Source of the DNA: Candidatus Epulonipiscium viviparus | GTDB taxonomy: Bacteria; Bacillota; Clostridia; Lachnospirales; Cellulosilyticaceae | Direction of reading: 5' to 3' | NCBI RefSeq assembly: GCF_030708075.1 | Contig: NZ_CP117982.1 | Coordinates: 1 to 64,000 of the forward strand | DNA: 64,000 bases | Shown here: in pieces, positions 10,462 through 64,000 of the stretch | Layout of the letters: the number at the start of each line of letters is the position of its first letter | Numbering within the stretch: position 1 is the first letter of the stretch | Translations under genes and position numbers: made by a program | The notes under the pieces: generated by a model | What the model was told of the DNA's origin: nothing | Database searches by the model: none | Seen by the model: the letters and a program-made list of their open reading frames with translations, nothing else

Positions 10462-10478
10462 GAGCTAGCAGCGACATA

Positions 10479-28150: not shown

Positions 28151-28806
28151 TGTTGCCATTATTTGGAATTATCAAGATGTAAGGTGCCATAATAGCTTAA
28201 AGTATTACTTTAACCGAGAAATTTTCGTCGCCGGAAACGCCCGTCGTTGCTACACAATTAGCTTCAAGTATTACTTTAACTGCGGCAAAATGGGCTGTGA
28301 TTTGTACAGTAAAATTATCGGATGTACCAGCCACGGCGATGATCAAGATGTAAGTCGCCATAACAGCTTAAAGTATTACTTTAACCGAGAAATTTTCGTC
28401 ACCGGAAACGCTTGTGGTTGCTACACAATTAGCTTAAAGTATTACTTTAACTGCGGCAAAATCGGCTGATTTGTACAGTAAAATTATCGGATGTACCAGC
28501 TATTGCGATTATCAAGATGTAAAACACCATAACAGCTTAAAGTATTACTTTAACCGAGAAATTTTCGTCACCGGAAACGCTTGTCATTGCTACACAATTA
28601 GCTTCAAGTATTACTTTAACTGCGGCAAAATCGGCTGTGATTTGTACAGTAAAATTATCGGATGTACCAGCCATGGCGATGATCAAGATGTAAATCACCA
28701 TAACAGCTTAAAGTATTACTTTAACCGAGAGATTTTCGTCACCGGAAACGCTTGTGGTTGCTACATAATTTGCTTAAAGTATTACTTTAACTGCGGCAAA
28801 ATGGGC
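28151..28806. repeat. 171-bp tandem repeat, block 3
   Basis: About four units with the same entry sequence. Intact palindromes start at 28197, 28368, 28434, 28537, 28708 and 28774. Two others are one-base variants (TTCAAG) at 28263 and 28603. One unit is 169 bp because of a short deletion near 28469. As in block 2, it ends within AACTGCGGCAAAATGGGC and passes into the 27-bp array. Confidence 0.9.
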
Positions 28807-29562
28807 TTCGCCAGCTATTGCCACCGAATTGGCTACCCCAGCTATTGCTATCGCATCGACCTCATCAGCTGTTGCCATCGATCGTCGCTACGAGTCGGCT
28901 ACCCCAGCTATTGCCATCGAGTCGGCTTCACCAGCTGTTGCCATCGAGTCGGCCATCCTAGCTATTGCTATCGCATCGACCTCACCAGCTGTTGCCACCG
29001 AATCGGCTTCGCCAGCTGTTGCTATCGCATCGACCTCACCAGCTGTTGCCATCGAATCGGCTTCGCCAGCTGTTGCTATCGCATCGACCTCATCAGCTAT
29101 TGTAATCGAATCGGCTCCGCTAGCTATTGTCATCGCATCGACCTCATCAGCTGTTGCACCGAGTCGGCTACCCCGGCTATTGTCATCGCATCGACCACCT
29201 CAGCTATTACCACCGAGTCGGCTTCGCCAGCTGTTGTCATCAAATCGGCTTCGCCAGCTGTTGTCATCGCATCGACCTCACCAGCTGTTGTCATCGAGTT
29301 GGCTTCGCGAGCTACTGCCATCGAACCGATCATCCCAGCTACTACCATCGCATCGACTCCGCTAGCTATTACCACCGAGTCGGCTTCCCAGCTGTTGTCA
29401 TCAAATCGGCTTCGCCAGCTGTTGCATCGCATCGACCTCATCAGCTGTTGCCACCGAGTCGGCTACCCCAGCTATTGCCATCGCATCGACCTCATCAGCT
29501 GTTGCCATCGAGTCGGCCATCCTAGCTATTGCCACCGAGTCGGCTTCGCCAGCTACTGTAGT
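28806..29562. repeat. 27-bp minisatellite, block 3
   Basis: About 28 units of the 27-bp family with several short deletions (e.g. near 28880, 29150, 29385 and 29420) that shift frame. It ends about 60 bp from the stop codon of gene C. The remaining 29563-29622 is AT-rich with no convincing terminator hairpin for gene C. Confidence 0.88.
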
Positions 29563-38661: not shown

Positions 38662-40044
38662 GAGAATAGCAAAGAAGCTGGCGCCGATCGAGCAGATGGA
38701 GAAGAAGGAGAAGATGTAGAAAATGGGGAGGATGTAGCAGATAGAGAGATGAGATGATGTAGAAGACGGAGAAGATGGAGAAGAGGATGTAGCAGATCGA
38801 GCAGATTGAGATGACGGAGATGATGTAGAAGCTAGGGAGGATGTAGCAGATCGAGCAGATGTAGAGAGACGGAGAAGATGTAGAAGATAGGGAGGATGTA
38901 GCAGATCGAGAAGATGTAGAAGACGGAGATGATGTAGAAGTTGGGGAGGATGGAGCAGATTGAGATGATGTAGATGACGGAGATGATGTAGAAGTTGGGG
39001 AGGATGGAGCAGATTGAGATGATGTAGATGACGGAGATGATGTAGAAGTTGGGGAGGATGGAGCAGATTGAGATGATGTAGATGACGGAGATGATGTAGA
39101 AGTTGGGGAGGATGGAGCAGATTGAGATGATGTAGATGACGGAGATGATGTGGAAGCTGGGGAGGATGTAGAAGCTGGGGAGAATGTAGCAGATCGAGCA
39201 GATTGAGCAGATGTGGAAGATGGAGATGACGGAGAAGATGAAGAAGCTGGGGAGGATGTAGAAGACGGAGATGATGTAGAAACTAGGGAGGATGTAGCAG
39301 ATAGAGCAGATTGAGATGATGTAGAAGACGGAGAAGATGTAGAAAATGGGGAGGATGTAGCAGATAGAGCAGATTGAGATGATGTAGAAGACGGAGAAGA
39401 TGTAGAAAATGGGGAGGATGTAGCAGATCGAGAAGATGTAGAAGACGGAGAAGATGTAGAATCTGGGGAGGATGTAGCAGATAGAGCAGATTGAGATGAT
39501 GTAGAAGACGGAGAAGATGTAGAAAATGGGGAGGATGTAGCAGATAGAGCTGAGATGAGTAGAAGACGGAGAAGATGTAGAAGGTGGGGAGGATGTAGCA
39601 GATAGAGCAGATTGAGATGATGTAGAAGACGGAGAATGATGTAGAAGTGGGGAGGATGTAGAGCAGATTGAGATGATGTAGATGACGGAGATGATGTAGA
39701 AGGGGAGGATGTAGCAGATGAGCAGATTGAGATGATGTAGAAGACGGAGATGATGTGGAAGCTGGGGAGGATGTAGCAGATCGAGCAGATTAGATGATGT
39801 AGAAGACGGAGATGATGTAGAAGCTAGGGAGGATGTAGCAGATCGAGCAGATGAGATGACGGAGAAGATGTAGAATGGGAGGATGTAGCAGATAGAGCAG
39901 ATTGAGATGATGTAGAAGACGGAGAAGATGTAGAATCTGGGGAGGATGTAGCAGATCGAGCAGATTGAGATGATGTAGAAGACGGAGAAGCTGGAGACGG
40001 TGGAGAAGATGTAGCCGATCGAAAAGATGTAGAAAATCGAGCAT
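38662..40044. repeat. 9-bp based minisatellite with 54-bp higher-order units
   Basis: Nine-base modules such as GATGTAGAA, GACGGAGAA, GATGTAGCA, GATCGAGCA and GATTGAGAT are strung together. A 54-bp unit is repeated almost perfectly at 38941-39160. On the plus strand one frame reads DVEDGEDVE-type repeats but meets TGA in nearly every unit (GCA GAT TGA). The minus strand is open for about 400 codons (FYIFSVFYIISICSICYILP-type) without any start signal. I treat it as non-coding. It ends directly at the permease terminator. Confidence 0.9.
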
Positions 40045-46124: not shown

Positions 46125-46153
46125 TTGACAAAAGCAGCAGCGGGCGTTAAAAT
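46125..46153 (+). promoter_or_regulatory. Sigma-70 promoter of giant gene D
   Basis: TTGACA, 17-nt spacer, TAAAAT: perfect -35 and 5 of 6 at -10. It gives a leader of about 100 nt that contains a 6-bp stem (GTAAAG at 46163 with CTTTAC at 46193) and then AAAAAGGAG 9 nt before the ATG. It is divergent from the minus-strand promoter at 45946-45974. Confidence 0.75.
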
Positions 46154-46260
46154 GTCTTTATCGTAAAGTTGGCATATTTTAACCAAATCCGGCTTTACCG
46201 CAATCAAAGTTATAGTGAAAAAGTTTTTTGTAATGTTAAAAGAAAAAGGAGTACTATAAT

Positions 46261-49200
46261 ATGAACAAATTACAACGAAAGCTTGCCCTACTCATGGCAA
46301 CTACATCGTTTACTTTAAATATTCCAGCATATTCTATGGAGTTTGATAACTTTTTAGATGATAGCTTGGGTATATTTGAAGAAATGATAGAACAAGAAGA
46401 ATTGTTGGATGAAATATTTTATCCATATGGAGATGCAGACGTTTTTGATGAAAGTTTTGACAGTAGTTTCGACGATAGTTTCGGCGATAGTTTTGACGAT
46501 GTCTTTATAGATGAAACTATGAATAGTTACGAAGATTTCTTTGAACAAGAAGAGAAAGAAATAGAAGAAAATATTGAAGACTTTGAATTCGATGAAGAAT
46601 CAACAGAAGAAAACGGTGGCATTGCGACAATGGTGCCAGACAGTTTTAAAGTTTCGGAGGATTCCCCCGATGAGTTTGCTATTAATTCGTTAACAGAAAT
46701 ATATGTAGACGGTCAACGGGTTGATGTAAGCGCGACTTACCCATATACAGCAGTTAGCACGAAAAAGACTATATATGCAGGAGAAGAATACATACTTCCA
46801 ACAGTATCGCTTGATCCAGACGCATCGTTGCCTTTGTTTTCAAGAATTACTGAAAATGGAAAAGATATACAGGAAGAAGAGGGTGTATTAGCAATAAGCT
46901 CGAGCCGTGATGCCTTTACAAGGCTTAGAGCCGCTGAAGAGGAAATTACATATACGGTATCATACTATGCAAATGAAGGCGATTCTCAAGCAGTATACGA
47001 AGTGAATGTTATAACTAGTCCAAGTCTTGGGGTTCTAATAACAGATGGAAAATTCAAGGGTCAAATGATTACAACAGATACAACTCTGGATACTACATTG
47101 GGTGCGGGTGATATAAAAAGCAGCCACTTTATGATTACAGCTACAGAAGTGACGAACCCTGTTCCAGAGGTTAAGAAAGTTGGTGACTCAAATTGGAGTG
47201 GCACAATTGATAATATAGAAGATGCGGTGGGGCAATATACAATCACATATAAATATATAGATCCTGCGAATACAGAGACATTAGTGATCACAGTAAATGT
47301 TACTTCACTAGAAAAGGGCGAACTGATTATTAATCTGAGTGACACTAATCCTTCTTCAATCGCTCTTAAGAATATCGATCAATATAAGTGGCCATATCCA
47401 AGTTTTGATTATGGTGATAATGCTTTGAATCATGATAGTCCAGGGATTACTTATGAAGTGACAGTAGAGAAAAAAGGCGCTTTGATGATAACCACTTTAC
47501 CGTCAGGACCTGCTCCAGGTAATAGTGCTGCTGCCATAGATGCTATAAAAGCTGGCGGTGCCGGGGATTACACATTCACCTATACCGCATCATACACAGA
47601 TCCAGATACAACTGAAGTTGTCGACGCAAAACCGGTTACTCGCGATCTTAAGGTAACAGCAGATGGTGAAAAACCTGTGTTGGATAAAAATTCTATTTCT
47701 GCTGACTATACATCGAATATAGGAGACACGTTTCCTATTCCTCAGATTATCGCAACCGATGTTGATGGGGATGAGCTTGTAATTAAATATACAATTGAAT
47801 CTGCAGAAGTAGCTGGCTTTGAATCACCAGGAGAGTTAGATTTAAAAACCGATAGCACGTTCTCTTTTCTGCTACCCGGAAAATATACTATCACTTATGT
47901 AGCACATGAAACTAGAGAAGGCGGAATGACTAGTGATCCAGTTGTGATCAACTTGACAGTGACAGCGATAGGCGCACCAACTCTGGATGTGATCAAATAT
48001 CTCGAAGAAGTATCATACATGAGTGAAGCAGAATATGATATCTCTAGTACCGCACTATCAATTTTAGTAGATTCGAAACCAATTGCAAGCGATGCTGAAG
48101 GAATAGTAATTTCCTATACCAATGCTGCGGGAGAAGATATTGAGAAGATCGATACTACGACACCTGGTGAATACATGTTGGTAGTTAATTATACGAATGA
48201 CAAAAACATTCCAGCGGCGCCGGTGAAAAAACCTGTTACTGTATCAGAAAATCAGCCACCAACGTTTGACGAGTATTCAGAGACTCCAAAATCCCCGTTC
48301 GCAGGAATCGCATATACTGTTCCAGCGCTAACAGCTGTGGACCCAGAAATGGTGGGTCACTCTCAGGCAGCCACATATCCTGTGGAAATCAAATATACGG
48401 TTGTAGAAGGAGGCGCTGCGCCAGACTTTACTAACGCAAAAGCTTTGACGGACCCATACACGTTTGCAGAAGCTGGAACGTATAAAATCGCATATCAAGC
48501 CACAGACTCGACTACACTTACGGCTTCCTCAACTAAGGAAATTTCTATAGAAGTTATCGAAAATGTTATGCCTAAAATTACCATTTCTCATGGCGCAGTA
48601 AGCTATAATGGCGACTTCAACCTCGATCAAACTTTTGGAGATACGGCAGACTCTCTAAACAGCTTGACTGCATCCGCAAAGGACGGAGAGGTTAATATTG
48701 ATGCGTCAAAAATAACCTTGACGATTACGCAAACTATTAATGACGTCGGAGAAGCTGTGAATGAGGACATAGCTGATTTTGATGCGCTCATGAAAAAAGT
48801 AGGAACTTATACCGCAACTTGGTCGGTCGCAGATGTGGAAGACCCTAGCAAAAGCGCAACGCTAACAGCGACGATTAAAGTGATTGATGACAAGAAACCA
48901 GAAATTACTTATGACGGAGAGCTAAATCAAGTGATTGAATTTGGCGGGTCATTTGATCTAAGCGCGCTTACTGTTACTGCGACTGATAATTATGATGGGG
49001 ACCTAACACCTACTCGAACGGTGACAATGGGTGACCCACCAGTGGAAGTGCCAAGTGAGACTACTACTCTTAATCAGCCAGGGACGTATACTATTACTTA
49101 TACTGCAGTAGACAAGTCGAAAAATGAAGCGACGCTGGAAATTAATGTATTGATAAAAGAGGACCCTGAGGGTAATGCACCTAAATTTTCAATAATTCTT

Positions 49201-52200
49201 AATGAAGGAGCAGAGAGCGAAAAAACTTTTACTGCCGATGGGCAAATCAACATGATCGCCGGAGAAGCTGCACCTAAATTGAAGGGCACATATACCACCA
49301 AAAATAATACAGTACCACAAGACGTTACTGCTAAAATAACCGATTCTACCGATGCCGAAGTAACCGATCCTGACACAGCGTTGAAAAATCCTGGCACTTA
49401 TAAATATACGTATGAAGTACAATACGAGACAAGCGAGGAGCCACCTCAGACCAAAACTTCTTCTGTGGTGATAACCGTCGTGGTTGCGGAAAACGAGATG
49501 CCTATAGTTAGTGCAACATACAAGGGAGCAATACTCCAGACTCCAATTGAAATAAATATGGGAGATGCTGCGCCAGAAATTACTCTTAGCGCAACAGACG
49601 ATGGAAAAGATGTAGATTTAACAGTGAACGCACCTACTATTTCTATAACAAAAGATGGAGCAGACTTTACAGGAGGAATCGACACTATTCCTAACGCGGC
49701 GGGTGAGTACATTATCACTTATTCTGTTGCAGATAGTATAGACAGTACAAAAAGCGGTACGTTACTTGTGACAGTAAAAGTTAATGGTGCACCAGTGATA
49801 CACTATGATGGGGCAGCAGCAGGCGAAACGGTAGACGAATCCATTGCTCAAAACGGCGAATTAACAAAGTCGATCACAGCAGTCGACGCAGAAAATGATC
49901 CTATAACTTGGTCATTTGCTATCGAGGGCGAAGGCACATATACAACTCAAGCAGATCTGAACACTAAAATTAAGACACTTGCAGCTGGGGTTTATAAAAT
50001 TGTTGTAACCGCAACAGACAATGCAGGTCTTGCAGATAAATTTACGATCAACCTCACTATTGCCACGAATGTGGCACCAGAAATTTTTTATAATGGAATA
50101 TCGACTGATGCAACCGAAACTATCGAAGTGGGCGGAACGTTAAAGGATATTACTACTAGTGAAGATGTTGCAAAGCTGACTTTCAAAATCGGCGAAGAGG
50201 CAGCAGTTGATTATGATAAATCAGTATTTGATAACGCAATCAAGGCGTTGCCTGTTGGTACGCATACAATCGTGATCGTAGCGACTGATGCGACTGATTC
50301 AACTTTAACCGATACTTTAACGATTACTTTAACTGTAGCTGCTGCGAATGTGGCACCAGTAATTTCTTATGATGGAGCAGATGCTGGAGATACAAAAGCG
50401 CTTTCGATTACAGCGGGCGGAACTTTAGCGGCGATTACTACTAATGAGACTGATGCAAAGTTGACTTATTCTATAGACGGAGCTCCAGCTGTACCTCATA
50501 CACCAACAGAATTTGATAACGCGATCAAGGCGTTGACTGCTGGTGAGTATACGATCGTGATTACAGCGACTGATGCGCTTGAGCCAACTTTAACCGATAC
50601 TTTAACGATTACTTTAACTGTAACTGCTGCGAATGTGGCACCAGTAATTTCTTATGATGGAGCAGATGCTGGAGATACAAAAACGCTTTCGATTACAGCG
50701 GGCGGAACTTTAGCGGCGATTACTACTAATGAGACTGATGCAAAGCTGACTTTCAAAATCGGCGAAGAGGCAGCTGTACCTCATACACCAACAGAATTTG
50801 ATAACGCGATCAAGGCGTTGTCTGCTGGTGAGTATACAATCGTGATTACAGCGACTGATGCGACTGAGCCAACTTTAACCGATACTTTAACGATTACTTT
50901 AACTGTAGCTGCCGCGAATGTGGCACCAGTAATTTCTTATGATGGAGCAGATGCTGGAGATACAAAAACGCTTTCGATTACAGCGGGCGGAACTTTAGCG
51001 GCGATTACTACTAATGAGACTGATGCAAAGCTGACTTTCAAAATCGGCGAAGAGGCAGCTGTACCTCATACACCAACAGAATTTGATAACGCGATCAAGG
51101 CGTTGACTGCTGGTACGCATACAATCGTGATCGTAGCGACTGATGCGATTGAGCCAACTTTAACCGATACTTTAACGATTACTTTAACTGTAACTGCTGC
51201 GGCTGGTCCAGAATTTAAAGATGGCGGGGTAACAAAAACTGTTCAGGAAACTAAATTGAATGCAACTGTTATAAAGGAAGCCGATTTGGCCGCGTTGCTA
51301 TCTGATTCAACGGCTACAATTTCGAATTTTGCGCAAAAAGCTGCGTATGGATTAAATCCGGTATTTAATAGCGAAAGAGTAAATGTGATAGCAACTACTT
51401 TTACAGCAACAAATGCGGGCGGCATTGCTAGCGATTTAACTTATACTCAGTACACTGTTGTAGATCAGGAAGCGCCATCGTTTGGAATATTTAATTCATC
51501 GTCTAGAGATGCGATAGTTCATAGCCCTAAGGGTCGTACATTCTTCCCATTTGCTGTAACCGATAAAAAAGATGGAGTGATGATAGATCAAACTAGTAGA
51601 ACTTTAATAGACCCTACTGGAAATACTACAGGAGCATATACAGGACCAATACTTTCGACAGAGGCCAAGGCGAATGCATATGGCATTCACAAATACGTAT
51701 ATGAAGTAACAGATAGCGATACCAATTCTACAACCGCGACATTTTATGGTGTTATACATCCAAATAAAACTCAATATGAAGCAGGTCCGTCGATAACTGT
51801 AGACACTCTTGCACCTGAATATAAGACCAACAATATAGATCTGGAAGTTCCGAAAAAAACGATAGAGCAATACGCACCTTATGTACCTGCTGTAGAAATC
51901 GCAGATGGAAGCACGTTGGAGATTACGATACTGAAATCTGATCCTATTACCGCTGGCTGGGAAGTGACTGTAGTAGAAGACAAAGTCACCACTGTAGATG
52001 CGGTGAAAGCAATAGCAGAAACGGCTGGGGAATATGAAGTTGTATATATGGCAAAAAGTGGTAACGACGCAGGGGTATATGCTCAACAGATAACAGTAAC
52101 TCCGGGCGAGAATACTGCGCCAGTTTTGACCGTAACAAATGGAGAAAGTAATTATACTTCAAATACAGTAACAACTGTTATGCTAAACGAGCCGGCACCA

Positions 52201-55200
52201 ACTCTTAGCGCAACGGCGACGGATAACGGAATCGATGTTACTGTGGCAGACCCTGTTGTAAAAAAAGGAGAAACCGTTTTACCTGGTGGGCTGGCTGATA
52301 TCAATACGGCAGAAGTTGGAGAATATACTGTGACCTATGTTGTTGCGGACGGATTTGATTCTAGCCTCGATAAAACTATTGTAGTAACGATTAAAGTGAT
52401 AGAATCGTTTGCGGGAGTTGACTTTATACGAGATGGCAATGCCGCAAATCAAGATGCCGGGATCGCATTATCTAAGGGCGACACATATACTGCACCAGAA
52501 GTGAAGGCTGTAGTTGACGGTGCAGCAGGAGAGGTATTAACTCCGGTAATAGTTCGATTGACTGGAAAAGGTAATCAGACAGAGGTGGATTCAAGTAAAC
52601 ATGGATCATACTCGCTGACGTATACACACCCAGGAGACGCTTCAAAAACTCTCGAGATTATAGTGGTAATCATGCCAGATGCAACTAATGAGAAGCCACA
52701 CTTTGAGGCAAATGAAAAAGCCTGGGATACGATAGGGTTCTCGGACAAAGCTACCAGTGTTTCACCAGGAATAACTGCCTTAGATGCAAAAGACGGAGAT
52801 TTGTTCACGTTTAAGCCAGCAGAGGGAACAGGAGTATATATGACTGTATCGAAAGCTGGGGAGGAAATTGTTGCTCGCCGACATATCTACAAGGGAGCTA
52901 GTGGTCTTGCAGTTACGTTTAATAAAGGACCTGGTGCGTATGAGATAAATTATGAACTGCTAGATTCTGATAGCAATGCGGCAAGTTTGAATTATACGTT
53001 TGTGGCATCGCCGATAGCTAAAGATAAAGATACCGTCGTGATTCCTGGAACTCCGATATTTACTGTAGATGGTAGAGCGATTTCGACATGGCCACTAAAA
53101 GACACCACTGTACCGAGAGTTGATTTGGCGCAACATCAGCCGTATGCACAGACTATTACAATAACAGAAGGAGCAGACCCGGCGGCAGTAGTTGGTAGAG
53201 TATTTAAGCTGAATGGCGCTAATAATGTGGATAACGTATCGCCAACCGATATCGATTATAAAGCGTTAAATGTTGAAGAGCCTGGAAGGTATTTCGTAAT
53301 TCTCACCGCAGAGTCCGCTGGAGGACAGGGTGGCGTATACGCAGAACTGGTGACAGTAACGGCAAATGAAAAGCCTGTTATTACACCGCCAACCGAGACA
53401 GAGCTTACTACAACTGTAGGAGCAGTAATCACCTTACCAAATGTAAACGCGGAAGATCCTGAGGATGGCCCTCTAACAGCTACTTCTACGATTTACGATG
53501 CCGATAATGCGATAGTTGCCGACGTTGCAAAGATGGTGGAAAAAGCTGGAATATACACCGTAAAATATATTGCAACTGACAGTGCGGGAGGTGTATCTGA
53601 CCCAGTTGAAGTTACTGTTACAGTAACAGATCCTGCAAACGAAGCGCCGGTATTGGCTTTGAAAAATCCTGAAGATGCCAATGTAACTGCCACTGTAGGT
53701 GCAGTAGACTTTGCGTTACCAGAATTGAATGCAACAGACAAAGAGGACGATGCGGCAAGCAAACCGATTTCTGTAACTCATACAATCAAAGACTCCACGG
53801 ATGCAACTATAGAAGATGTTGCGACAATGCTATCGAAAGCTGGAGTTTATAAAGTAACATTTGTCGCGACCGACTCCGAGGGAGTTAAATCGAATGAAGT
53901 TGTAGTTACTGTAACTGTGGCAGAAGCGGTAGATACCGAAAAGCCTGTGATTACGTTTACATTTAGCGGATACAAGTATGGCAAAGAAGAAACACCAGGA
54001 GCTCCTCAGACATTTAGTAGCGCTAATCCGTATCCTGACGGGGAAACTATGTTTACGATGGCTGAGAACATGACTCAAGGAGATATTATTACTGTTGTAA
54101 CAAACGTCACAGACAATATCTCAGAAGATGTTCAACTAGAATGGAAGGCGTACGAGAATAAAATTGCTGAACCTCCGATGGCTCTTGAAAATTTGGAAGA
54201 TATCACCAAAAAGAAAGGCAATTACTTTGTAACTTTCACAGCAACTGATGAGGCCGGAAATACTGCAGAAATGATTGTTAAGCTAACTGTGAAAGAATAC
54301 ATTCCGGTGGAGTTTGTCTATAACGGGCAATCGTATAAAGAAGTTAAAAATGATATAGAGCACAAATTGAAGGTAGGAGAGTCATACGCACCGACGATCG
54401 AAATTATTGAGGATTCACTAAACAACTTTACGTATTCTGTAGCTAAGGTAGGTGGCGGTGAGATTTTGGCACCTACTACCGAAAAGAGCGACATTGCAAA
54501 GGCGATTGCTGATATCAACACTGCGTTGGGAACTCCAGTATTGGGAGATAAGTTTACTGTGAAATTTGTAACAAAAGCGTACAATGTGCCAGACCAAACT
54601 TTTGATATAGCATTGGAATATGTGGCGGCTGATGTGGATACAACTGTACCGCAAATTACTGTAAATGATGGAACTACTGCTCATACCAAAGACTTTGAGG
54701 TAGAGCTGGAAGTAGGAGAGACTATTCCAACGTTTACGGCAACAGCGATGGATGAAACAACTGATGTTACCGCTGATATCAAAACTGCTGTGACGAAGAA
54801 CGGCGAAGCATTTACAGAAGGAGTGGAAGGAATTACCAGTGCCGAAGAAGCGACGTATGTGATCACTTATACTGTAAGCGATGGAACTAATACGGGCACG
54901 CTAAAAGCGACGATTACTATTATACCTAAGAATGTGGCACCAGAAATTTCTTATGGCGGAGTACCAACTGATGAAACCACTGTAGTGATCGCAGAGGGCG
55001 GAACTATAATGGCGATTACTACTAATGAGAATAATGCAAAGCTGACTTATTCTATAGACGGAGCTCCAGCTTTACCTCACACACAAACAGAATTTGATAA
55101 CGCAATCAAGGCGTTGCCTGTTGGTAAGTATACGATCGTGATTACAGCGACTGATGCGCTTGATTCAACTTTAACCAATACTTTAACGATTAATTTGATT

Positions 55201-58200
55201 GTAACTGCCGCGAATGTGGCACCAGAAATTTCTTATGATGGAGTATCGACTGATGCAATAACCGAAACTATCGAAGCGGGCGGAACGTTAAAGGCGATTA
55301 CTACTAATGAGACTGATGCAAAGTTGACTTATTCTATAGACGGAGCTCCAGCTTTACCTCATACACCAGCAGAATTTGATAACGCAATCAAGAAGTTGAC
55401 TGCTGGTGAGCATACAATCGTGATTACAGCGACTGATGCGACTGAGCCAACTTTAACCGATACTTTAACGATTACTTTAACTGTAACCGCCGCGAATGTG
55501 GCACCAGAAATTTCTTATGATGGAGTATCGACTGATGCAATAACCGAAACTATCGAAGTGGGCGGAACGTTAAAGGCGATTACTACTAATGAGACTGATG
55601 CAAAGCTGACTTATTCTATAGACGGAGCTCCAGCTGTACCTCATACACCAGCAGAATTTGATAACGCAATCAAGGCGTTGCCTATTGGTCCGCATACGGT
55701 CGTGATTACAGCAGCTGATGCGACTGATTCAACTTTAACCGATACTTTAACGATTACTTTAACTGTAACCGCCGCGAACACTGCGCCAAAAATCACTCCG
55801 TTAGGTCAAGATAAATATACAGTACTTCTCAATGACGAATTATTTGTATTTCCAACTCCTATCGTAACTGATAAAGAAGACGATGCTGCAAATAAAGAGG
55901 TTGCCGTGACTCACGCAATTACAGATTCTGGCAATAATCCGATAGCTAGTCTTGCTGAGATGATTGCAGTGGCGGGCGTATATACTGTCGCTTATACAGC
56001 AACTGACTCTGCTGGTGCGACATCGGCTCCATATACAATTACTGTTGAGGTAGTTGCGGAAATGGCTGGTGCGATATTCTTTAATCCGGGAGAGCCTATG
56101 TATGAAATAGAGTCTGGTTCGGAATTTACTATACCAGATGTCACTGCGGTTGATGGGTATTTACAAAAGCCGCTTGAGGTGAAAAGAACAATCTTAAACA
56201 AGACCAATTCTATTATACGCGAAGATGCGCTCACCGATATTTCCGGAACATATAGAATAATTTATAGTGCGACATCTGCGTCTGGTGTACCGGGAACTTA
56301 TACGATTACGGTGAACGTTACTGATGCGACAGCACCGGTGATTTGGTATAACGGAACTGAACAAGCAAATCAGGCGTTGATCGAATTGACCGGGGAGAAG
56401 GCTTTGACCAAGGGATCGGTATATGCACCAGAAATTATCGTAACTGATGCGAATACTCCTGTACCTGCGATTAGATTTGATATATATCCAGGATTAATTG
56501 CTCCGGGCACGCCATCCGGAAGTTTGCCACCAAAATTTAAGGTAGATGGAAAGGAAATCGATATTTCGGAAATTCCAAATCAAGTAGCGGGCAATTACAC
56601 TGTTATTTACTCCGCTAATGACGCTATCAATTGGAGATCTATTTATATTCAGATTGAAGTTAAAGATGGGACTCCAGAAGCGGTAGAAAACGCGCCGATC
56701 ATTACGATTAAAGATAAGAACGGCATTGTTAGAAGCGAGGACGAAGATGCTGGAGGTACGACGCCTTATAACCACGAAGTCGCGATGAATACCACTGTAG
56801 AAGAATTCCAGAAATTGGTACAATACTCTGCTACCAAATCAGATGCAGCAACACCGCTGGAGGTTATAGTTTCCAATATTACGCATGATAACAATACGCA
56901 ATTTTCAACTATAGAGCAATTCTTAAATGTGCCAGGGTATTACACCGTTACTCTACAAGCTAAAGATGGTGACAAGGCGACGGTAAGACGCATTAGTATT
57001 AGAATTGTGGATACCAGTGTTCCGGTAATTAGTTATAAAGGAGAAGCAATACCAAATAAAGGGGCGCTTGATATTACGTTAAACCCAACAGAGAGATTTA
57101 ATGCCGCCGATATTTCAATAACAGACAACTCGCTAAATGCTGGTGGATCGGGAGTTCATATTACGCCTCCGGGTGGTACCGAATCGGCATTGATTAAGTT
57201 TAACGACAAAACTGCGGGTACAGGATTTGTAGATTCGCTAAATAAAGTTGGAGAGACCGTAGGAAAGTATAAGCTACGATTTGTGGCAAAAGATTGGCAG
57301 CCAGGTAATGCTCTGGGAGTTGACAAAAATGCAGAAGTGACCATCAATGTAGACGCGTTGGCAGTGGCACCAGGCGCGGATACCGAAAAACCAGTGATCG
57401 CGGCTCCGGCTAATGCTAAAATTGAGGTGAATAAGGGCGATGAGTTTGAGATGCCTCCAGTGCCAGCTGTAACTGATAATAGCACAGACAGATTAACGGT
57501 TATAACTACGATTTATGATGTGACAGGATTGGAAACTGCGGAGATTGCCGAGTTGATGGCAATTGTTTTGACGGACGAAAATAAAATTGCGCTTGAAGAG
57601 GAAGGCGTGATTGTTGATGCGGTCGATACATCTAAACTTAACGAGTACAAGATTCGTTATGATGCGGTAGACCGAGCAGGAAATAGAGCAGACCAGCAAT
57701 CAGTGGCTGTTACAGTTGTAGAGAGCGAACCAGATACCGTATTTCCGAGTATCGACTTTACTGCAGGCGAATTTAGTCTGAACGCTCAAAGTGCGACTCC
57801 TACTACTGGCGCGTTTGAAATGACGGCTATGACTGCACCAGAGGTGTCGATTACTGTTACTGATAAGGCTACTATTGTGCCTACTGTTACGCTTGCTGGT
57901 GTAGCAATTACGGGGGCAACGGCTGCCGATATCGCGACGGCTCTAAAAGCTGAGCTTAATAAGTTGGCAGCGGCGGACACTGCGTATGTAATTGATATTA
58001 AAGCTTTTGATGGAACCAACGAAACGCAGATGATTATTAATGTAACTGTGAAAGCGGCAGTGGTGGTGGGTGCTCCAACATTTGCTAATGGCGAACTCGA
58101 GAAAGAGGATATCCATTTGAACTCTATCGCTCCAGACGCTCCGTCGATAGAGGCAGCAGATCTGGCGGCCACTCTAAAGAGCATGCTTGATACTCAATTC

Positions 58201-61200
58201 GCAGAGGACCCGGACGTAACTGTTACTCCTGGAAAAGTTACGTGGGGATATAGCAATAAATTTTTAAATAACAAAGTTAATGTAGTACGCATTCCGTTTA
58301 CGGCAACATTAGATGGAAAAGTAAATGATCTAGTTTATACACGCACATTGGCACTAGATCAGGAGGAGCCTGCGTTCTATATATTCAACACGACTGCAAA
58401 GGATAATATTTTGCCGATAGTAAAAGGTCAGGAATGGTATCCGTTTGCAGCAGCAGATAAGAAAGATGGAAGCTTAATTCCTGCTACCACAAGAACGCTA
58501 ACCGGCCCTGATGGCGAAGTTATTGGCACTTACACAGGCTATAAAGATTCTGCAACTGAAGCAAAAGTTGATCAGTTTGGTTTGTATCAGCATAGACATG
58601 AGATAACAGATAGCGATGGGCATACAGAAGATGCGACGTTCTTTGGCATTGCGGTGCCGAAGAACGATGATCCAAATAAATTGGAGATTACTGTGGATGG
58701 CAAAACTCCGACATATACTACTCCAGATAAGCTAACTGTGGAGACGAGGACGCTTGCGCAATATACGCCATTCATGCCTGAGGTGGTATATCCGTTTGTG
58801 AATAGTTCGGTTCAGACTATCGTGCTATCTACAACACCAGTAGGTCCAAATAGAGATGTAGAAGTAGTGACATTGAATGGTTCGATCGACGATGTTAAAA
58901 CTGTTGCAAGGACCGCAGGAATCTTTACTATCGCATATATGGCTATTGACAATACTGACCCTACAAAAGCGGGGACATATATCGAGGAAATAACAGTAAC
59001 TGCGGGTGAGAATACTGCGCCAGTGTTAACTGTAACCGATGAAACTAATTCTTATACCGAAGATTTTGAGTTGACATTTAAAATGTTAGACATCTTACCG
59101 CTTATTCAAGCAACGGCAACAGACGAAGGAGTCGATATTAATGCATCTGGTCCTACAGTTAAGAAAGTGGGCGACAATGCTTGGACCGGAACTGTCGAGG
59201 ATATAACAAATGCGGCAGGAACTTATACTTTAACCTTTGTTGCGGAAGATACTTTCGATTCTACATTAAATAAGACTATTGTAGGGACCATAAATGTAGT
59301 TACTGATGGACCAAAATTCGCAGATGGCTCGACTTTAAAGGAAGAAATTACCACCGACTTAGCTGCAGCGGCTCCAACTGAAGACTATATCAAAACTTTA
59401 CTGGACGATACGAGTGCACAGATCTCTGATTGGAAACAATCGGCTTCACACGGAAGTATTCCTGTATCCAAAGCTAGAGTAAACGTAATAACAACTACTT
59501 TTACGGCAACAAACGCTAAGGGCGCTCAGGCTTTGACGCATATTCACACTACTGCCCATGATCAAGCAGAGCCGTCCTTCGGAATCAACAACGTGGCAAC
59601 AAAAGATATTATTACAATCAGTACCAAGGGTCGAGCATTTTTCCCATTTGCGGCAACCGATAGAGAAGATGGAAGCTTGATCAGCAAAACGCAACGTACG
59701 CTTATTAACCCTGCAGGCGAAACTCAGGCAACATTTGTGGGAGCAACTGGCGCCGATGATGACACAGGCAAGGCAGCGACATTTGGATTGCACCAGTATG
59801 TATATGAAGTTTCAGATAAAGATAGCAATGCGATTAAATCTACAGTGTATGTATTTACGACTCCTAACAAAGCACAACAAGCAGAAAATCCAAGCATTAC
59901 AGTAGATGGCGCCGAAGCTGCATATACAAATACTGAAGGCACCAAGATGGAGTTTAAAGCTGTAGAAACAACGAAAGGTAAAGCGTATACGCCGAATGTT
60001 GTTATTCCACCAGATGCTACATTAAAAATAGCAATATTAAAATCTGCAGGAGAAAAAGAGACACTCGATGTAACAATGATAAACGGCGATGCGACAATCG
60101 ACGATGTGAAGGCGCTTGCAAATGAAGAGGGCATATATACGATTGGATATATGGCAGTGGATAACGCCAATCCAGAAAAAGCGGGAATGTTCTTACAGAC
60201 GCTAACTGTGGCTCCAGCGGCGAACGCACCAGTGATTACTGTACCAGATATATTAGAATACGATGTCGCTCAGGGCGGAAAATTTGATATACCTGAATTG
60301 AAAGCTACCGATGTGGAAGACGGCGAAGTTACTGCAACATACAAAGTGAGCGTCAACGGAACTGAGACTGCTTTTGATACAGCTGCAGAAGTGGGGACTG
60401 TGTTTACGTTTACTTATACTGCAACAGACTCGGAGAACAATGTGTCCGAACCGGTTGTTATTACGGTAACCATCACAGAGGCAGTTGCCGAAGGAATTAC
60501 ATTTACGATTCCACCAGATGCGAAGCTTGAGTTTGACGTTGGCGAGGAGTTTGTGATTCCGGCTATTGTCGCAACAGATGAAAACGGAGTGAAATTAGAT
60601 ACGACGTATTCCATTATTAGAAGACCGGGCGGATTCCTTAATACTGATAACGCGTGGACAGAAGCCACCGTGACTAGCTTGAGTGGTACGTATTCTGTAA
60701 TATTCTTAGCAAGGGACGCATATGGAAATGAAGCGACAAAGGATGTTCAAATTAAAGTAGTGGATGAGATCCCGCCGGTTATATATTACAACGGCGTAGA
60801 TGCGGGAGATACGCAAACGCTAAATCTTAAGAAAAATGAAGCTTTGATTGTTAATGTAACTATGGTCGAGAACGCTGCAATGGCAAAACTTACCAGAATT
60901 GTTACGGATGAATCAAATACTATTATTAAGGATAACAAATTCCCTGACATTACAAAAACACCGGGAACGTATAAAGCTGTTTATACTGCAACAGACGGAG
61001 TTGCAACAGACAAATTGACGATGACAATTGTAGTTTCAGAAGAAGCGGTAGATGCGACAGGGCTTCCGGTGATTACTGTAACAGATGAGCGAACTGGAAA
61101 TTCGGTAGTAGCCGGAAAGCAAGTATTTAGGTTAATGACCGATACCCCAGAAACTCTGGATATTACTCACACAACAGATATCGAGGCAGATCTTCAAGTG

Positions 61201-64000
61201 GATTATACCGCGAGCATTGCCAACTTATCTCAAACTGTACCGCTAGAGGATATATTTAAAACTCCGGCTTATTACACAACAACTGTTAAAGCAACCAACA
61301 AGAATGACCCAACCAAATCATCTATGTTTATGTATACTACCGTTATTCAAGATAATCAAAAACCAGTATTTTATTTTGAAGACGTATTGCAAGATGATTT
61401 AGCCGAGGCTACTATCGAGCATGTAGTGGAGACGACCGGAACTCTCGCACCAAACGTCGTACCGTATGATAATTCATTGCGAGCAGGAAAGGCGCCAGTG
61501 AAGATTGTGAGCACTATCGCTGGAGTTGAGACCCAAGTACTTCCGCATAAAGATGCCAGTGGAAATGATTTAGTGCTTGCTGCAACACAACAGCCATATC
61601 AAGTAGATGACACAGGAGCTTCGACAAACAAACTTTATACCGATACTCAAATATGGGATATGGTTAAAGCGTTGGGTACGCAAGAAGGTACGCATAAGTT
61701 ATCGTATTACGCATCTCAATGGCAAGGTTATTTACATGCAACTAGAGGCGACTATGCCGAGTTTTTCCTAACTGTAAATGTTGTCGCAACTCCAGATGAG
61801 ATAGCTCCGGTTATAGCTGATCCAGACCCGCTTAAATATGAAGTGGCTCAAGGGGGGGCATTCACTATGCCGCCAGTTCCTAGCGCAACTGATGATAGAG
61901 ACGACGTAGTTACTGTTAACGTGGCGGTTATGGACCCAGATAACAAAATTAGTACTACTGTTGATACAAACAAAGTAGGCACGCATCGAATTATTTACTC
62001 CGCAAAAGATATTGCTGGAAATAAGGCCGAACCGAAAGAAGTAGAAGTAGTGGTTAAGGCTGTAGCGGATGACGAAAAGCCTGTGATTACGTTTACATTT
62101 AGCGGATACAAGTATGGCAAAGAGGAAACACCAGGAGAGCCTCAGACATTTAGTAGCGCTAATCCGTATCCTGACGGGGAAACTATGTTTACGATGTTTG
62201 AGAGCATGACTCAAGGAGATATTATTACGGTTACAACAAACGTCACAGACAATATCTCAAAAGATGTTGAACTGACCTGGGAAGTACGCGAGAATAAAAT
62301 TACTGAACCTGTGATTACTCTTGAAAAATTGGAAGATATCACCAAAAAGAAAGGCAATTACTTTGTAACTTTCACCGCAACTGATGATGCCGGAAATACT
62401 GCAGAAATGATTGTTAAGCTAACTGTGAAAGAATATGTTCCTGTAAAATTCGTATATAATGGAAAGACGTATAACGAGGTTACGAATGAAATAGAGCACA
62501 AGTTGAATGTAGGAATGCCATACGCACCGACGATCGAAATTATTGAAGATTCACTAAACCAATTTACGTATTCTGCCACTAAGGTAGGCGGCGGTGAGAT
62601 TTTGACACCTGCTACTGGAAAGATGACTGACCTTCCAAAGGCGATCACTGACATCAACACTGCGTTGGGAGCTCCAGCAGTTGGAGATAAGTTTACTGTG
62701 AAATTTGTAACAAAGGCATACAATGTGCCAGACCAAACTTTTAATATAGCATTGGAATATGTGGCGGCTGGTGTGGATACAACTGTACCTCAAATAGCAG
62801 TAAACGATGGAACCACTGAGCATACTGACGACTTTACTGTGAAAGTGAAGAAAGACGGCGCAATTCCAACTCTTACGGCAACAGCTATGGACGGCACAGA
62901 TAATGTTACTGCGGATATCAAAACTACTGTGACGAAGAACGGCGAAGCATTTACAGCTGGAGTAGCAGGAATCACTAGTGCGGAAGAAGCAACTTATGTA
63001 ATAACTTATACTGTAAGCGATGGAACCAACAACGATACGTTGAACGTAACAATACATGTGGATGCCACGGGGCCGGTGATTACGTTTAAAGCAGAAGGAC
63101 TGAAGCAAGGGGCTGGCAATGCGGCGACGTCGTTTGAATTTATATCAAATAAATTGGGAGAGAAGCCGAGTGCGGTATTTAATTTGGCAGACACATTCCC
63201 GTATACCATTACCGCAAAAGATGAAGTGGACGGAGCTGTAACTTATAAGTATGAAGTACACGATGAGAGAGGCGTTACCAAATTTGAGGATATGATGGCC
63301 GTTATGAATAAGGCAGGAAACTACCGAGTTACGATAACTTCAACAGACGAAGTTGGCAACGAAACTTCTATGGCAGTGATGTTGTATTCGCAAGAATTTG
63401 AGAAGGCAGAAGTTTCCTACGGTGGAGCGGCGATGGCAGCGGGAGATACTAAGAGCGTAACGATCGCGCCTGCAGATGTGGGTGCGTACAATCCAACTTT
63501 ATCTGTATCGGATGGAGCTTTGAGATGGGCAAAATATTCGATAACTAAAAATGGTACAGAGATAACTCCGGTAACGACGATGCCACAAGCAACTGTTGGG
63601 GATGAAATAGTCGCAAATACAACCGACGCAGTAGCGGCAATCAAAGCTGCAGTAGCGGGAGCAAAAAATGGGGATCAAATTGTAGTGAATTTAGAAGTTG
63701 TGGACTGGTTCTTATATACTGATAAAGCACCTGCAAAATACACGATCAACATTTCGATAGGTACAGAAGTAGATCTAACTAAACCAACGATAGCTATTAA
63801 CGAGAATACTGCCGACTACATGATCTACAAGTATAAAGGTCAGGGATTAACTCAGGGGGTTGTTGCCACCGACAATGTGGATGGCGATTTAACAGCAGAT
63901 AAATTTAAGGGAGAAGACGCCGGAATCTATAGAAATGTTAAGATTAATGGCGAAGCACTAGCAGAAGAGAAAGTATCGAAAGCAGATTTGGCGGCTAAGT
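46261..64000 (+). CDS. Giant secreted Ig-like repeat protein D (at least 5913 aa, open at right edge)
   Basis: From the ATG at 46261 the frame is uninterrupted to the window edge; the sampled lines across the whole region read in frame with no stop. The N-terminus MNKLQRKLALLMATTS is a signal peptide with cleavage near residue 25. A very acidic linker follows (about 26-125, repeats of FDDSF/FDESF and EEIEENIEDF). The remainder is a long string of beta-sandwich modules with the closing motif G-x-Y-[TK]-[IV]-x-Y-x-A-x-D (GTYTITYTAVDKS, GKYTITYVAHE), as in DUF5011/HYR/Big_3 domains of Gram-positive adhesins. Near-identical 94-95-residue tandem copies lie at 50341-51195 and 54925-55770. No enzyme motif seen. 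The C-terminal anchor is outside the window. Likely a giant adhesin or surface fibre (inference). Its own sigma-70 promoter and AAAAAGGAG support expression. Confidence 0.93.
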   Translation, partial: MNKLQRKLALLMATTSFTLNIPAYSMEFDNFLDDSLGIFEEMIEQEELLDEIFYPYGDADVFDESFDSSFDDSFGDSFDDVFIDETMNSYEDFFEQEEKEIEENIEDFEFDEESTEENGGIATMVPDSFKVSEDSPDEFAINSLTEIYVDGQRVDVSATYPYTAVSTKKTIYAGEEYILPTVSLDPDASLPLFSRITENGKDIQEEEGVLAISSSRDAFTRLRAAEEEITYTVSYYANEGDSQAVYEVNVITSPSLGVLITDGKFKGQMITTDTTLDTTLGAGDIKSSHFMITATEVTNPVPEVKKVGDSNWSGTIDNIEDAVGQYTITYKYIDPANTETLVITVNVTSLEKGELIINLSDTNPSSIALKNIDQYKWPYPSFDYGDNALNHDSPGITYEVTVEKKGALMITTLPSGPAPGNSAAAIDAIKAGGAGDYTFTYTASYTDPDTTEVVDAKPVTRDLKVTADGEKPVLDKNSISADYTSNIGDTFPIPQIIATDVDGDELVIKYTIESAEVAGFESPGELDLKTDSTFSFLLPGKYTITYVAHETREGGMTSDPVVINLTVTAIGAPTLDVIKYLEEVSYMSEAEYDISSTALSILVDSKPIASDAEGIVISYTNAAGEDIEKIDTTTPGEYMLVVNYTNDKNIPAAPVKKPVTVSENQPPTFDEYSETPKSPFAGIAYTVPALTAVDPEMVGHSQAATYPVEIKYTVVEGGAAPDFTNAKALTDPYTFAEAGTYKIAYQATDSTTLTASSTKEISIEVIENVMPKITISHGAVSYNGDFNLDQTFGDTADSLNSLTASAKDGEVNIDASKITLTITQTINDVGEAVNEDIADFDALMKKVGTYTATWSVADVEDPSKSATLTATIKVIDDKKPEITYDGELNQVIEFGGSFDLSALTVTATDNYDGDLTPTRTVTMGDPPVEVPSETTTLNQPGTYTITYTAVDKSKNEATLEINVLIKEDPEGNAPKFSIILNEGAESEKTFTADGQINMIAGEAAPKLKGTYTTKNNTVPQDVTAKITDSTDAEVTDPDTALKNPGTYKYTYEVQYETSEEPPQTKTSSVVITVVVAENEMPIVSATYKGAILQTPIEINMGDAAPEITLSATDDGKDVDLTVNAPTISITKDGADFTGGIDTIPNAAGEYIITYSVADSIDSTKSGTLLVTVKVNGAPVIHYDGAAAGETVDESIAQNGELTKSITAVDAENDPITWSFAIEGEGTYTTQADLNTKIKTLAAGVYKIVVTATDNAGLADKFTINLTIATNVAPEIFYNGISTDATETIEVGGTLKDITTSEDVAKLTFKIGEEAAVDYDKSVFDNAIKALPVGTHTIVIVATDATDSTLTDTLTITLTVAAANVAPVISYDGADAGDTKALSITAGGTLAAITTNETDAKLTYSIDGAPAVPHTPTEFDNAIKALTAGEYTIVITATDALEPTLTDTLTITLTVTAANVAPVISYDGADAGDTKTLSITAGGTLAAITTNETDAKLTFKIGEEAAVPHTPTEFDNAIKALSAGEYTIVITATDATEPTLTDTLTITLTVAAANVAPVISYDGADAGDTKTLSITAGGTLAAITTNETDAKLTFKIGEEAAVPHTPTEFDNAIKALTAGTHTIVIVATDAIEPTLTDTLTITLTVTAAAGPEFKDGGVTKTVQETKLNATVIKEADLAALLSDSTATISNFAQKAAYGLNPVFNSERVNVIATTFTATNAGGIASDLTYTQYTVVDQEAPSFGIFNSSSRDAIVHSPKGRTFFPFAVTDKKDGVMIDQTSRTLIDPTGNTTGAYTGPILSTEAKANAYGIHKYVYEVTDSDTNSTTATFYGVIHPNKTQYEAGPSITVDTLAPEYKTNNIDLEVPKKTIEQYAPYVPAVEIADGSTLEITILKSDPITAGWEVTVVEDKVTTVDAVKAIAETAGEYEVVYMAKSGNDAGVYAQQITVTPGENTAPVLTVTNGESNYTSNTVTTVMLNEPAPTLSATATDNGIDVTVADPVVKKGETVLPGGLADINTAEVGEYTVTYVVADGFDSSLDKTIVVTIKVIESFAGVDFIRDGNAANQDAGIALSKGDTYTAPEVKAVVDGAAGEVLTPVIVRLTGKGNQTEVDSSKHGSYSLTYTHPGDASKTLEIIVVIMPDATNEKPHFEANEKAWDTIGFSDKATSVSPGITALDAKDGDLFTFKPAEGTGVYMTVSKAGEEIVARRHIYKGASGLAVTFNKGPGAYEINYELLDSDSNAASLNYTFVASPIAKDKDTVVIPGTPIFTVDGRAISTWPLKDTTVPRVDLAQHQPYAQTITITEGADPAAVVGRVFKLNGANNVDNVSPTDIDYKALNVEEPGRYFVILTAESAGGQGGVYAELVTVTANEKPVITPPTETELTTTVGAVITLPNVNAEDPEDGPLTATSTIYDADNAIVADVAKMVEKAGIYTVKYIATDSAGGVSDPVEVTVTVTDPANEAPVLALKNPEDANVTATVGAVDFALPELNATDKEDDAASKPISVTHTIKDSTDATIEDVATMLSKAGVYKVTFVATDSEGVKSNEVVVTVTVAEAVDTEKPVITFTFSGYKYGKEETPGAPQTFSSANPYPDGETMFTMAENMTQGDIITVVTNVTDNISEDVQLEWKAYENKIAEPPMALENLEDITKKKGNYFVTFTATDEAGNTAEMIVKLTVKEYIPVEFVYNGQSYKEVKNDIEHKLKVGESYAPTIEIIEDSLNNFTYSVAKVGGGEILAPTTEKSDIAKAIADINTALGTPVLGDKFTVKFVTKAYNVPDQTFDIALEYVAADVDTTVPQITVNDGTTAHTKDFEVELEVGETIPTFTATAMDETTDVTADIKTAVTKNGEAFTEGVEGITSAEEATYVITYTVSDGTNTGTLKATITIIPKNVAPEISYGGVPTDETTVVIAEGGTIMAITTNENNAKLTYSIDGAPALPHTQTEFDNAIKALPVGKYTIVITATDALDSTLTNTLTINLIVTAANVAPEISYDGVSTDAITETIEAGGTLKAITTNETDAKLTYSIDGAPALPHTPAEFDNAIKKLTAGEHTIVITATDATEPTLTDTLTITLTVTAANVAPEISYDGVSTDAITETIEVGGTLKAITTNETDAKLTYSIDGAPAVPHTPAEFDNAIKALPIGPHTVVITAADATDSTLTDTLTITLTVTAANTAPKITPLGQDKYTVLLNDELFVFPTPIVTDKEDDAANKEVAVTHAITDSGNNPIASLAEMIAVAGVYTVAYTATDSAGATSAPYTITVEVVAEMAGAIFFNPGEPMYEIESGSEFTIPDVTAVDGYLQKPLEVKRTILNKTNSIIREDALTDISGTYRIIYSATSASGVPGTYTITVNVTDATAPVIWYNGTEQANQALIELTGEKALTKGSVYAPEIIVTDANTPVPAIRFDIYPGLIAPGTPSGSLPPKFKVDGKEIDISEIPNQVAGNYTVIYSANDAINWRSIYIQIEVKDGTPEAVENAPIITIKDKNGIVRSEDEDAGGTTPYNHEVAMNTTVEEFQKLVQYSATKSDAATPLEVIVSNITHDNNTQFSTIEQFLNVPGYYTVTLQAKDGDKATVRRISIRIVDTSVPVISYKGEAIPNKGALDITLNPTERFNAADISITDNSLNAGGSGVHITPPGGTESALIKFNDKTAGTGFVDSLNKVGETVGKYKLRFVAKDWQPGNALGVDKNAEVTINVDALAVAPGADTEKPVIAAPANAKIEVNKGDEFEMPPVPAVTDNSTDRLTVITTIYDVTGLETAEIAELMAIVLTDENKIALEEEGVIVDAVDTSKLNEYKIRYDAVDRAGNRADQQSVAVTVVESEPDTVFPSIDFTAGEFSLNAQSATPTTGAFEMTAMTAPEVSITVTDKATIVPTVTLAGVAITGATAADIATALKAELNKLAAADTAYVIDIKAFDGTNETQMIINVTVKAAVVVGAPTFANGELEKEDIHLNSIAPDAPSIEAADLAATLKSMLDTQFAEDPDVTVTPGKVTWGYSNKFLNNKVNVVRIPFTATLDGKVNDLVYTRTLALDQEEPAFYIFNTTAKDNILPIVKGQEWYPFAAADKKDGSLIPATTRTLTGPDGEVIGTYTGYKDSATEAKVDQFGLYQHRHEITDSDGHTEDATFFGIAVPKNDDPNKLEITVDGKTPTYTTPDKLTVETRTLAQYTPFMPEVVYPFVNSSVQTIVLSTTPVGPNRDVEVVTLNGSIDDVKTVARTAGIFTIAYMAIDNTDPTKAGTYIEEITVTAGENTAPVLTVTDETNSYTEDFELTFKMLDILPLIQATATDEGVDINASGPTVKKVGDNAWTGTVEDITNAAGTYTLTFVAEDTFDSTLNKTIVGTINVVTDGPKFADGSTLKEEITTDLAAAAPTEDYIKTLLDDTSAQISDWKQSASHGSIPVSKARVNVITTTFTATNAKGAQALTHIHTTAHDQAEPSFGINNVATKDIITISTKGRAFFPFAATDREDGSLISKTQRTLINPAGETQATFVGATGADDDTGKAATFGLHQYVYEVSDKDSNAIKSTVYVFTTPNKAQQAENPSITVDGAEAAYTNTEGTKMEFKAVETTKGKAYTPNVVIPPDATLKIAILKSAGEKETLDVTMINGDATIDDVKALANEEGIYTIGYMAVDNANPEKAGMFLQTLTVAPAANAPVITVPDILEYDVAQGGKFDIPELKATDVEDGEVTATYKVSVNGTETAFDTAAEVGTVFTFTYTATDSENNVSEPVVITVTITEAVAEGITFTIPPDAKLEFDVGEEFVIPAIVATDENGVKLDTTYSIIRRPGGFLNTDNAWTEATVTSLSGTYSVIFLARDAYGNEATKDVQIKVVDEIPPVIYYNGVDAGDTQTLNLKKNEALIVNVTMVENAAMAKLTRIVTDESNTIIKDNKFPDITKTPGTYKAVYTATDGVATDKLTMTIVVSEEAVDATGLPVITVTDERTGNSVVAGKQVFRLMTDTPETLDITHTTDIEADLQVDYTASIANLSQTVPLEDIFKTPAYYTTTVKATNKNDPTKSSMFMYTTVIQDNQKPVFYFEDVLQDDLAEATIEHVVETTGTLAPNVVPYDNSLRAGKAPVKIVSTIAGVETQVLPHKDASGNDLVLAATQQPYQVDDTGASTNKLYTDTQIWDMVKALGTQEGTHKLSYYASQWQGYLHATRGDYAEFFLTVNVVATPDEIAPVIADPDPLKYEVAQGGAFTMPPVPSATDDRDDVVTVNVAVMDPDNKISTTVDTNKVGTHRIIYSAKDIAGNKAEPKEVEVVVKAVADDEKPVITFTFSGYKYGKEETPGEPQTFSSANPYPDGETMFTMFESMTQGDIITVTTNVTDNISKDVELTWEVRENKITEPVITLEKLEDITKKKGNYFVTFTATDDAGNTAEMIVKLTVKEYVPVKFVYNGKTYNEVTNEIEHKLNVGMPYAPTIEIIEDSLNQFTYSATKVGGGEILTPATGKMTDLPKAITDINTALGAPAVGDKFTVKFVTKAYNVPDQTFNIALEYVAAGVDTTVPQIAVNDGTTEHTDDFTVKVKKDGAIPTLTATAMDGTDNVTADIKTTVTKNGEAFTAGVAGITSAEEATYVITYTVSDGTNNDTLNVTIHVDATGPVITFKAEGLKQGAGNAATSFEFISNKLGEKPSAVFNLADTFPYTITAKDEVDGAVTYKYEVHDERGVTKFEDMMAVMNKAGNYRVTITSTDEVGNETSMAVMLYSQEFEKAEVSYGGAAMAAGDTKSVTIAPADVGAYNPTLSVSDGALRWAKYSITKNGTEITPVTTMPQATVGDEIVANTTDAVAAIKAAVAGAKNGDQIVVNLEVVDWFLYTDKAPAKYTINISIGTEVDLTKPTIAINENTADYMIYKYKGQGLTQGVVATDNVDGDLTADKFKGEDAGIYRNVKINGEALAEEKVSKADLAAK
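50341..51195 (+). repeat. Three tandem 285-bp coding repeats within gene D
   Basis: Each copy begins with the codons for AANVAPVISYDGADAGDTK and ends TLTDTLTITLTV. Copies start at 50341, 50626 and 50911, exactly 285 bp (95 codons) apart, and are nearly identical. A diverged copy precedes them from about 50059. Each copy is one Ig-like domain. Confidence 0.9.
51205..52130 (+). repeat. About 0.9-kb module of gene D, copy 1 of 3 (others 58069-59025 and 59305-60235)
   Basis: The three blocks share the protein pattern GPxFxDG ... [AD]L..LL.. ... RVNVI.T.FTATNA ... D...PSFGI.N ... KGR.FFPFA.TD..DG ... RTL..P.G ... YGIH.YVYE.[TS]D.D ... SITVD ... Y.P.V.I ... VKA.A...G.Y...YMA ... V..GENTAPVLTVT. 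Copies 2 and 3 are nearly adjacent; copy 1 is 7 kb upstream. Nucleotide identity is modest, so these are older than the 8136-bp duplication. Confidence 0.75.
53941..54900 (+). repeat. About 1-kb coding duplication in gene D (partner at 62077-63036)
   Basis: The segment starting KPVITFTFSGYKYGKEETPG recurs 8136 bp downstream at 62077 with high nucleotide identity to about 63040, ending around TYVITYTVSDGT. It spans three to four Ig-like domains, so it is a duplication of a multi-domain block. Confidence 0.85.
54925..55770 (+). repeat. Three tandem 282-bp coding repeats within gene D, second cluster
   Basis: Copies of the same domain type as at 50341 but 94 codons long, with NVAPEISYDGVSTDA starting at 54931, 55213 and 55495. 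The 1-codon length difference from the first cluster shows that each cluster was expanded separately from related seeds about 4 kb apart. Confidence 0.88.
62077..63036 (+). repeat. Second copy of the about 1-kb coding duplication in gene D
   Basis: Partner of 53941-54900. Differences are mostly scattered substitutions (for example GAPQT versus GEPQT). The neighbours on both sides of the two copies differ, so the block moved as a unit. Confidence 0.85.

Follow-up and report, generated by a model that had tools for sequence, protein, structure and literature searches.

Candidatus Epulonipiscium viviparus belongs to the Lachnospiraceae and lives as a symbiont in the gut of surgeonfish (PMC8245194). 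It carries an intact gene of exported type whose 6,833-aa product is probably a surface fibre with an exposed stalk under diversifying selection. Between two genomes of the species, the long Ig-like stalk of the protein accumulates amino-acid changes faster than silent ones, whereas its C-terminal base is conserved; this contrast in selection is new here. With Epulopiscium among the largest of bacterial cells, proteins of this kind bear on how so extensive a surface is covered and protected. For a giant surface protein the size is ordinary; what merits attention is the pattern of selection, together with a basic C-terminal tail.

Identification and limits of the giant gene

The DNA analysed (the window) comprises the first 64 kb of a genome available as one contig of 3,282,261 bases (G000:C1). 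A sequence-only reading of the window had reported a frame of more than 5900 codons running off the right edge. This frame is a real gene: it opens with the ATG at 46261 on the forward strand, continues through 5,913 codons to 64000 and, when extended rightward as that reading had proposed, closes with a TAA at 66760-66762, 2.76 kb past the window edge, with no N along the way. At the base composition of the region, a frame this long would stay open by chance with a probability of about e^-458, and the remaining five frames contain 178-589 stops each. The product has a mass of 728 kDa, a pI of 4.3 and not a single cysteine, hence neither a thioester nor a disulfide. The same reading had predicted that an ORF caller would miss the gene and report many short antisense frames in its place. 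The first point is only an effect of the cut window, since the frame is closed in the genome, and the second was overstated, with just two antisense frames of at least 150 aa inside the window part of the gene. An annotation gap was rejected because the gene has its own stop, and overlapping antisense genes were rejected as chance frames.

The flanking signals announced by the sequence-only reading could all be located. A promoter-like site of the sigma-70 type (TTGACA-17-TAAAAT, 46125..46153) matches the consensus at 11 of 12 positions, while shuffled sequences average 1.4 such sites per 351 bases scanned; a ribosome binding site, AAGGAG (46246..46251), is read 9 nt before the ATG; and the frame begins with a putative Sec-type signal peptide, MNKLQRKLALLMATTSFTLNIPAYS (46261..46335). 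A similar sequence opens a 5,531-aa paralogue. Export of the protein is strongly implied. On the 3' side, a terminator with a 9-bp stem followed by eight T (66773-66794) is succeeded by genes for a putative MarR-type regulator and two putative ABC exporters, identities assigned by visual inspection of the sequences.

The sole match in a species-level genome collection was NZ_ABEQ01000041.3, a draft of Candidatus Epulonipiscium (Epulopiscium) viviparus. This independent conspecific draft contains an intact orthologue of 6,847 aa in a conserved gene order that includes the downstream genes. DNA identity is 96.9% in the giant gene and 98.8% over 5.7 kb downstream, and amino-acid identity of the giant protein is 94.5%. 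In a related species (G002), the start of the contig truncates the orthologue and leaves a C-terminal part of 2,292 codons. The suggestion that the protein ranks by size among the larger bacterial ones loses its force even within the genus, where G002 has a 7,666-codon frame. A PNAS paper of 2023 reportedly describes the E. viviparus genome and may already list these giants.

Modular organization of the protein

The sequence-only reading had seen only Ig-like modules and an acidic N-terminal linker. Both are present, but the list was incomplete: an LRR-like segment and a basic tail lie beyond the window edge. The linker (46336..46620), acidic and aromatic, is encoded with 12-bp repeats and differs in length by 12 aa between the two genomes. 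Ig-like modules cover most of the remaining length, notably the stalk, residues 301-5650 (47161..63210). The Ig-like assignment had been left to stand or fall with an HMM scan, and it stood: PF16403 is matched with E-values of 3e-25 and 7e-23 (88.5 and 80.8 bits for a Pfam cut-off of 27) and InlK_D3, also above its cut-off, with 7e-18. For residues 1652-2050, AlphaFold2 predicts consecutive beta-sandwiches (pLDDT 78), that is, an Ig-like fold of this segment. The nearest solved structures retrieved with Foldseek were cadherins, Dscam and the Sap S-layer protein, at low TM-scores that we ascribe to bending of the bead chain. With its Pfam match and predicted fold, the protein belongs to the PF16403 type of bacterial surface Ig-like proteins. 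An NCBIfam scan produced sub-cut-off matches only (OmpL47 barrel, LapB repeat), and the first 3,000 residues had no match when searched by sequence against PDB.

The stalk includes two tandem arrays, one of ~95-aa Ig-like units at residues 1174-1647 (49780..51201) and another, with related units, at residues 2891-3180 (54931..55800). It also contains an internal duplication spanning ~360 aa, with copies at residues ~2525-2885 (53833..54915) and ~5221-5600 (61921..63060) that share 86% DNA identity. Units of both arrays are homogenised within each genome, those of array 1 differently in the two, and one array 1 unit is closest to the other genome's array 2, a resemblance that suggests ectopic gene conversion.

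The base, residues 5651-6833, occupies 63211..64000 in the window and continues outside it. It holds the last Ig-like modules, the LRR-like segment (residues ~6570-6790) and the basic tail TFINTAWSNIKNWFKS. The LRR-like segment is matched weakly, with E-values of 0.036 in Pfam and 0.005 against solved LRR proteins in PDB. The predicted model of the C-terminal 454 residues, which include the LRR-like segment and tail, was built from three sequences and reached a pLDDT of only 41. Pfam scans of the whole protein detected no SLH domain, its C-terminus has neither LPXTG nor a hydrophobic span, and Pfam and NCBIfam scans revealed no carbohydrate-binding or adhesin head domain.

Contrasting selection along the gene

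Values of dN/dS were obtained from two genomes, the present one and the draft, with the repeat arrays and the margins of gaps masked. A codon likelihood model and pairwise counting gave concordant results. The ratio is 1.59 over residues 301-5650 (likelihood ratio P 4e-4, with region limits set after the profile was seen) and drops to 0.22 over the last 1,183 residues (P 2e-7). Within the stalk, residues 301-2800 reach 1.85 (P 7e-4), while residues 2801-5650 alone give 1.32, which is not significant (P 0.16). The gene as a whole, at 1.17, does not differ from 1 (P 0.18), and four neighbouring genes pooled are at 0.25. Fisher tests separate the stalk from the base (P 2e-9) and from the four neighbours (P 5e-9). 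The dS of the giant gene (0.026) is in line with that of neighbouring genes (0.014-0.044), so the high ratio stems from a raised dN and not from depressed silent change. The amino-acid changes avoid hydrophobic residues (0.22 observed for 0.30 expected, P 1e-3), and the stalk fold is therefore still constrained. Targeted hypermutation of adenines was rejected, since the changes involve several base types and extend across thousands of codons.

Several other giants of the genome give raised ratios, most of them higher: 2.72 for a 2,880-aa protein (P 2e-14), 2.74 for one of ~6,150 aa (P 3e-23), 2.6 for each of two more, and 1.49 for a 3,246-aa protein (P 0.006). The elevation is not general to giants, as a 6,879-aa protein is at 0.76 and an SLH-anchored Ig giant at 0.20. 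The strongest signal is seen in a 6,151-codon frame (6,204 in the draft) located between ~21.0 and 2.6 kb from the end of the contig, where dN/dS is ~4 over residues 3100-5300 (P 6e-20) and the C-terminal part is conserved.

A probable surface fibre and its alternatives

We infer a location at the cell surface and an orientation in which the base sits at the envelope. The signal peptide would direct the protein through Sec, and the last ~1,180 residues, with their Ig modules, LRR-like segment and basic amphipathic tail, would make up a base under constraint, located at or within the envelope. From there, ~5,300 residues of Ig-like beads could extend as a long flexible stalk toward the gut. Its exposed faces would diversify under selection while the hydrophobic core is retained, and repeat units would be exchanged and homogenised within the gene. 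The likeliest selecting agents would be antibodies of the fish, phage or other antagonists that recognise the surface, such as predators. Polar changes scattered along thousands of residues fit recognition across a wide exposed surface better than tuning of a single binding site.

The stalk could instead be a spacer whose length matters and whose sequence does not, in which case dN/dS would settle near 1 without any arms race. The whole-gene ratio, that of the second stalk half and the tandem units speak for such relaxed constraint; still, we hold it to be unlikely in view of the ratio at residues 301-2800, of values up to 2.7 (P <1e-13) in other giants and of the sparing of hydrophobic residues, which bespeaks a fold under constraint. 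Errors or mixed alleles in one assembly might also raise dN, particularly in repeats or in a draft derived from a population. Some giants are indeed split by frameshifts in the window genome, and the draft contains N bases (N being its only ambiguity letter). However, errors should strike stalk, base and neighbours equally and break frames, while the giant frame is intact in both genomes, the repeat arrays were masked, and dN/dS is ~0.2 in the base and in the SLH giant at similar dS, so that an artefact appears highly improbable.

The surgeonfish host of Epulopiscium eats algae, and the fibre might be an adhesin or bind algal polysaccharides, its changes tracking differences in host or diet instead of antagonists. 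Adhesins do occur among giant proteins with Ig-like modules or repeats, for example in Mobiluncus and Staphylococcus (PMC10619420, PMC9302970). We regard this alternative as possible though doubtful, given the missing carbohydrate-binding or adhesin head domain in the scans above and changes that extend over thousands of residues rather than one binding face. A surface fibre diversifying under recognition by antagonists is the reading we favour.

Comparison with known giant proteins

Thousands of residues of repeated Ig-like beads are also found in the giant adhesin of Mobiluncus mulieris, of 7,651 aa (PMC10619420), from which the Epulopiscium protein differs by its lack of cysteine and of an LPXTG end and by its C-terminal LRR-like segment and basic tail. 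Apilactobacillus kunkeei, another animal symbiont, encodes several extracellular proteins of 3,000-8,000 aa, Giant1-5, that take up 4-6% of its genome (PMC12863079). They share with the present protein a signal peptide, internal repeats and a conserved C-terminal segment. Giant1-3, however, are mainly helical rather than Ig-like, and the set is under purifying selection with dS 4-8 times dN (PMC12863079), unlike the Epulopiscium stalk, where dN is above dS. This is the sole comparable symbiont set that we found in the literature. In Epulopiscium, more than 4% of a genome devoted to giant exported proteins, several with dN above dS, would mean intense recognition pressure on the surface.

Listeria internalins (InlK D3/D4, LRR) resemble the protein in their InlK_D3 Ig-like modules and LRR-like segment. 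They differ in scale and order: their LRR domain is N-terminal, Ig-like modules come next and a cell-wall anchor last, whereas here the LRR-like segment is C-terminal and weak and LPXTG is lacking. Within the genome, the SLH-anchored giant (G000:C1:1071125-1080907) likewise consists of PF16403 modules over thousands of residues, but it ends in SLH-like sequence and is under purifying selection.

A basic C-terminal tail

A short basic stretch, mostly amphipathic if helical, closes 17 giants, with KSFIARVKNLFKRS and SIASKIMSFFKRS as examples; these giants come from both genomes of the species and from two related ones. We described such tails (last ~15 residues net positive and amphipathic, in proteins of >2,800 aa) with a composition rule and with a profile of 16 tails, both made after the tails had been seen. 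The rule finds a tail in 14 of 29 giants and in 4 of 105 other frames (P 4e-8). The profile matches, at E <0.006, only C-termini of giants or giant fragments in four genomes of the genus (the present one, the same-species draft, G002 and G003). Among the 295 genomes of the order that were covered, the others gave no convincing match. A G002 giant outside the training set (4,083 codons, NNFFAKLLTKIFRS) is matched exactly at its end, with E 0.08. The very end of the 6,833-aa protein is matched with E 3e-4, its own tail being in the training set; by the rule it falls just under the charge limit, with +2 in the last 16 residues and a moment of 0.56. The G002 orthologue ends in STGLLGIFSRIKNFFKM, which can be aligned with this end although the preceding linker differs.

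A held-out profile, trained on a family of ~3,000-aa giants only, gave weak matches to the tails of the G002 orthologue (E 0.45) and of the 6,879-aa protein (E 0.45-5.5 for the two), and the tail of the 6,833-aa protein was not among its matches. The tails are therefore alike in kind only, and common descent between families is not established. The tail may serve the giant protein as a membrane anchor. In penicillin-binding protein 5 of E. coli, a helix lies on the outer leaflet of the membrane, and this arrangement is, by analogy, our first candidate for the mechanism. If the shared tail does anchor, it would retain proteins by a signal distinct from LPXTG, SLH and lipoproteins. One may tentatively picture the surface of Epulopiscium as clad in giant fibres that are for the most part unrelated, each held by a basic amphipathic tail specific to the genus, a new anchoring signal; their outer parts would be under widespread diversifying selection in an arms race with host immunity or phage.

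Other giants and repeats in the genome

The genome contains at least 11 giant genes or broken giant genes, amounting to 145 kb or 4.4% of the chromosome, a lower bound from sampled stretches around matches. The 5,531-aa paralogue shares 51-54% identity with the 6,833-aa protein over long stretches and ends before the LRR-like part. The 3,246-aa and 2,880-aa proteins (14739-24479 and 29623-38265 of the window, both on the minus strand) belong to one secreted family of ~3,000 aa, with several to ~10 members per genome; Pfam gives no match for the 2,880-aa member. Another giant of this family, at 1154-11102 on the plus strand, is broken into three frames, while its draft orthologue is open over 3,329 codons; the split may be due to assembly error, phase variation or decay. 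The giant frame at G000:C1:81291-93850, ~3,740 codons long, terminates in EEVFEEPVA repeats, and since a basic tail, NVFAKMFKKIFRI, follows directly in another frame, a frameshift probably occurred within the repeat. Intergenic minisatellites occupy 1-548, 11412-14016, 24720-29554 and 38686-40034 of the window, with units of 18/36, 171, 54/81/162 and 18/54 bp, respectively; the 36-bp unit attains up to 72 copies, and the open frames on these arrays look spurious.
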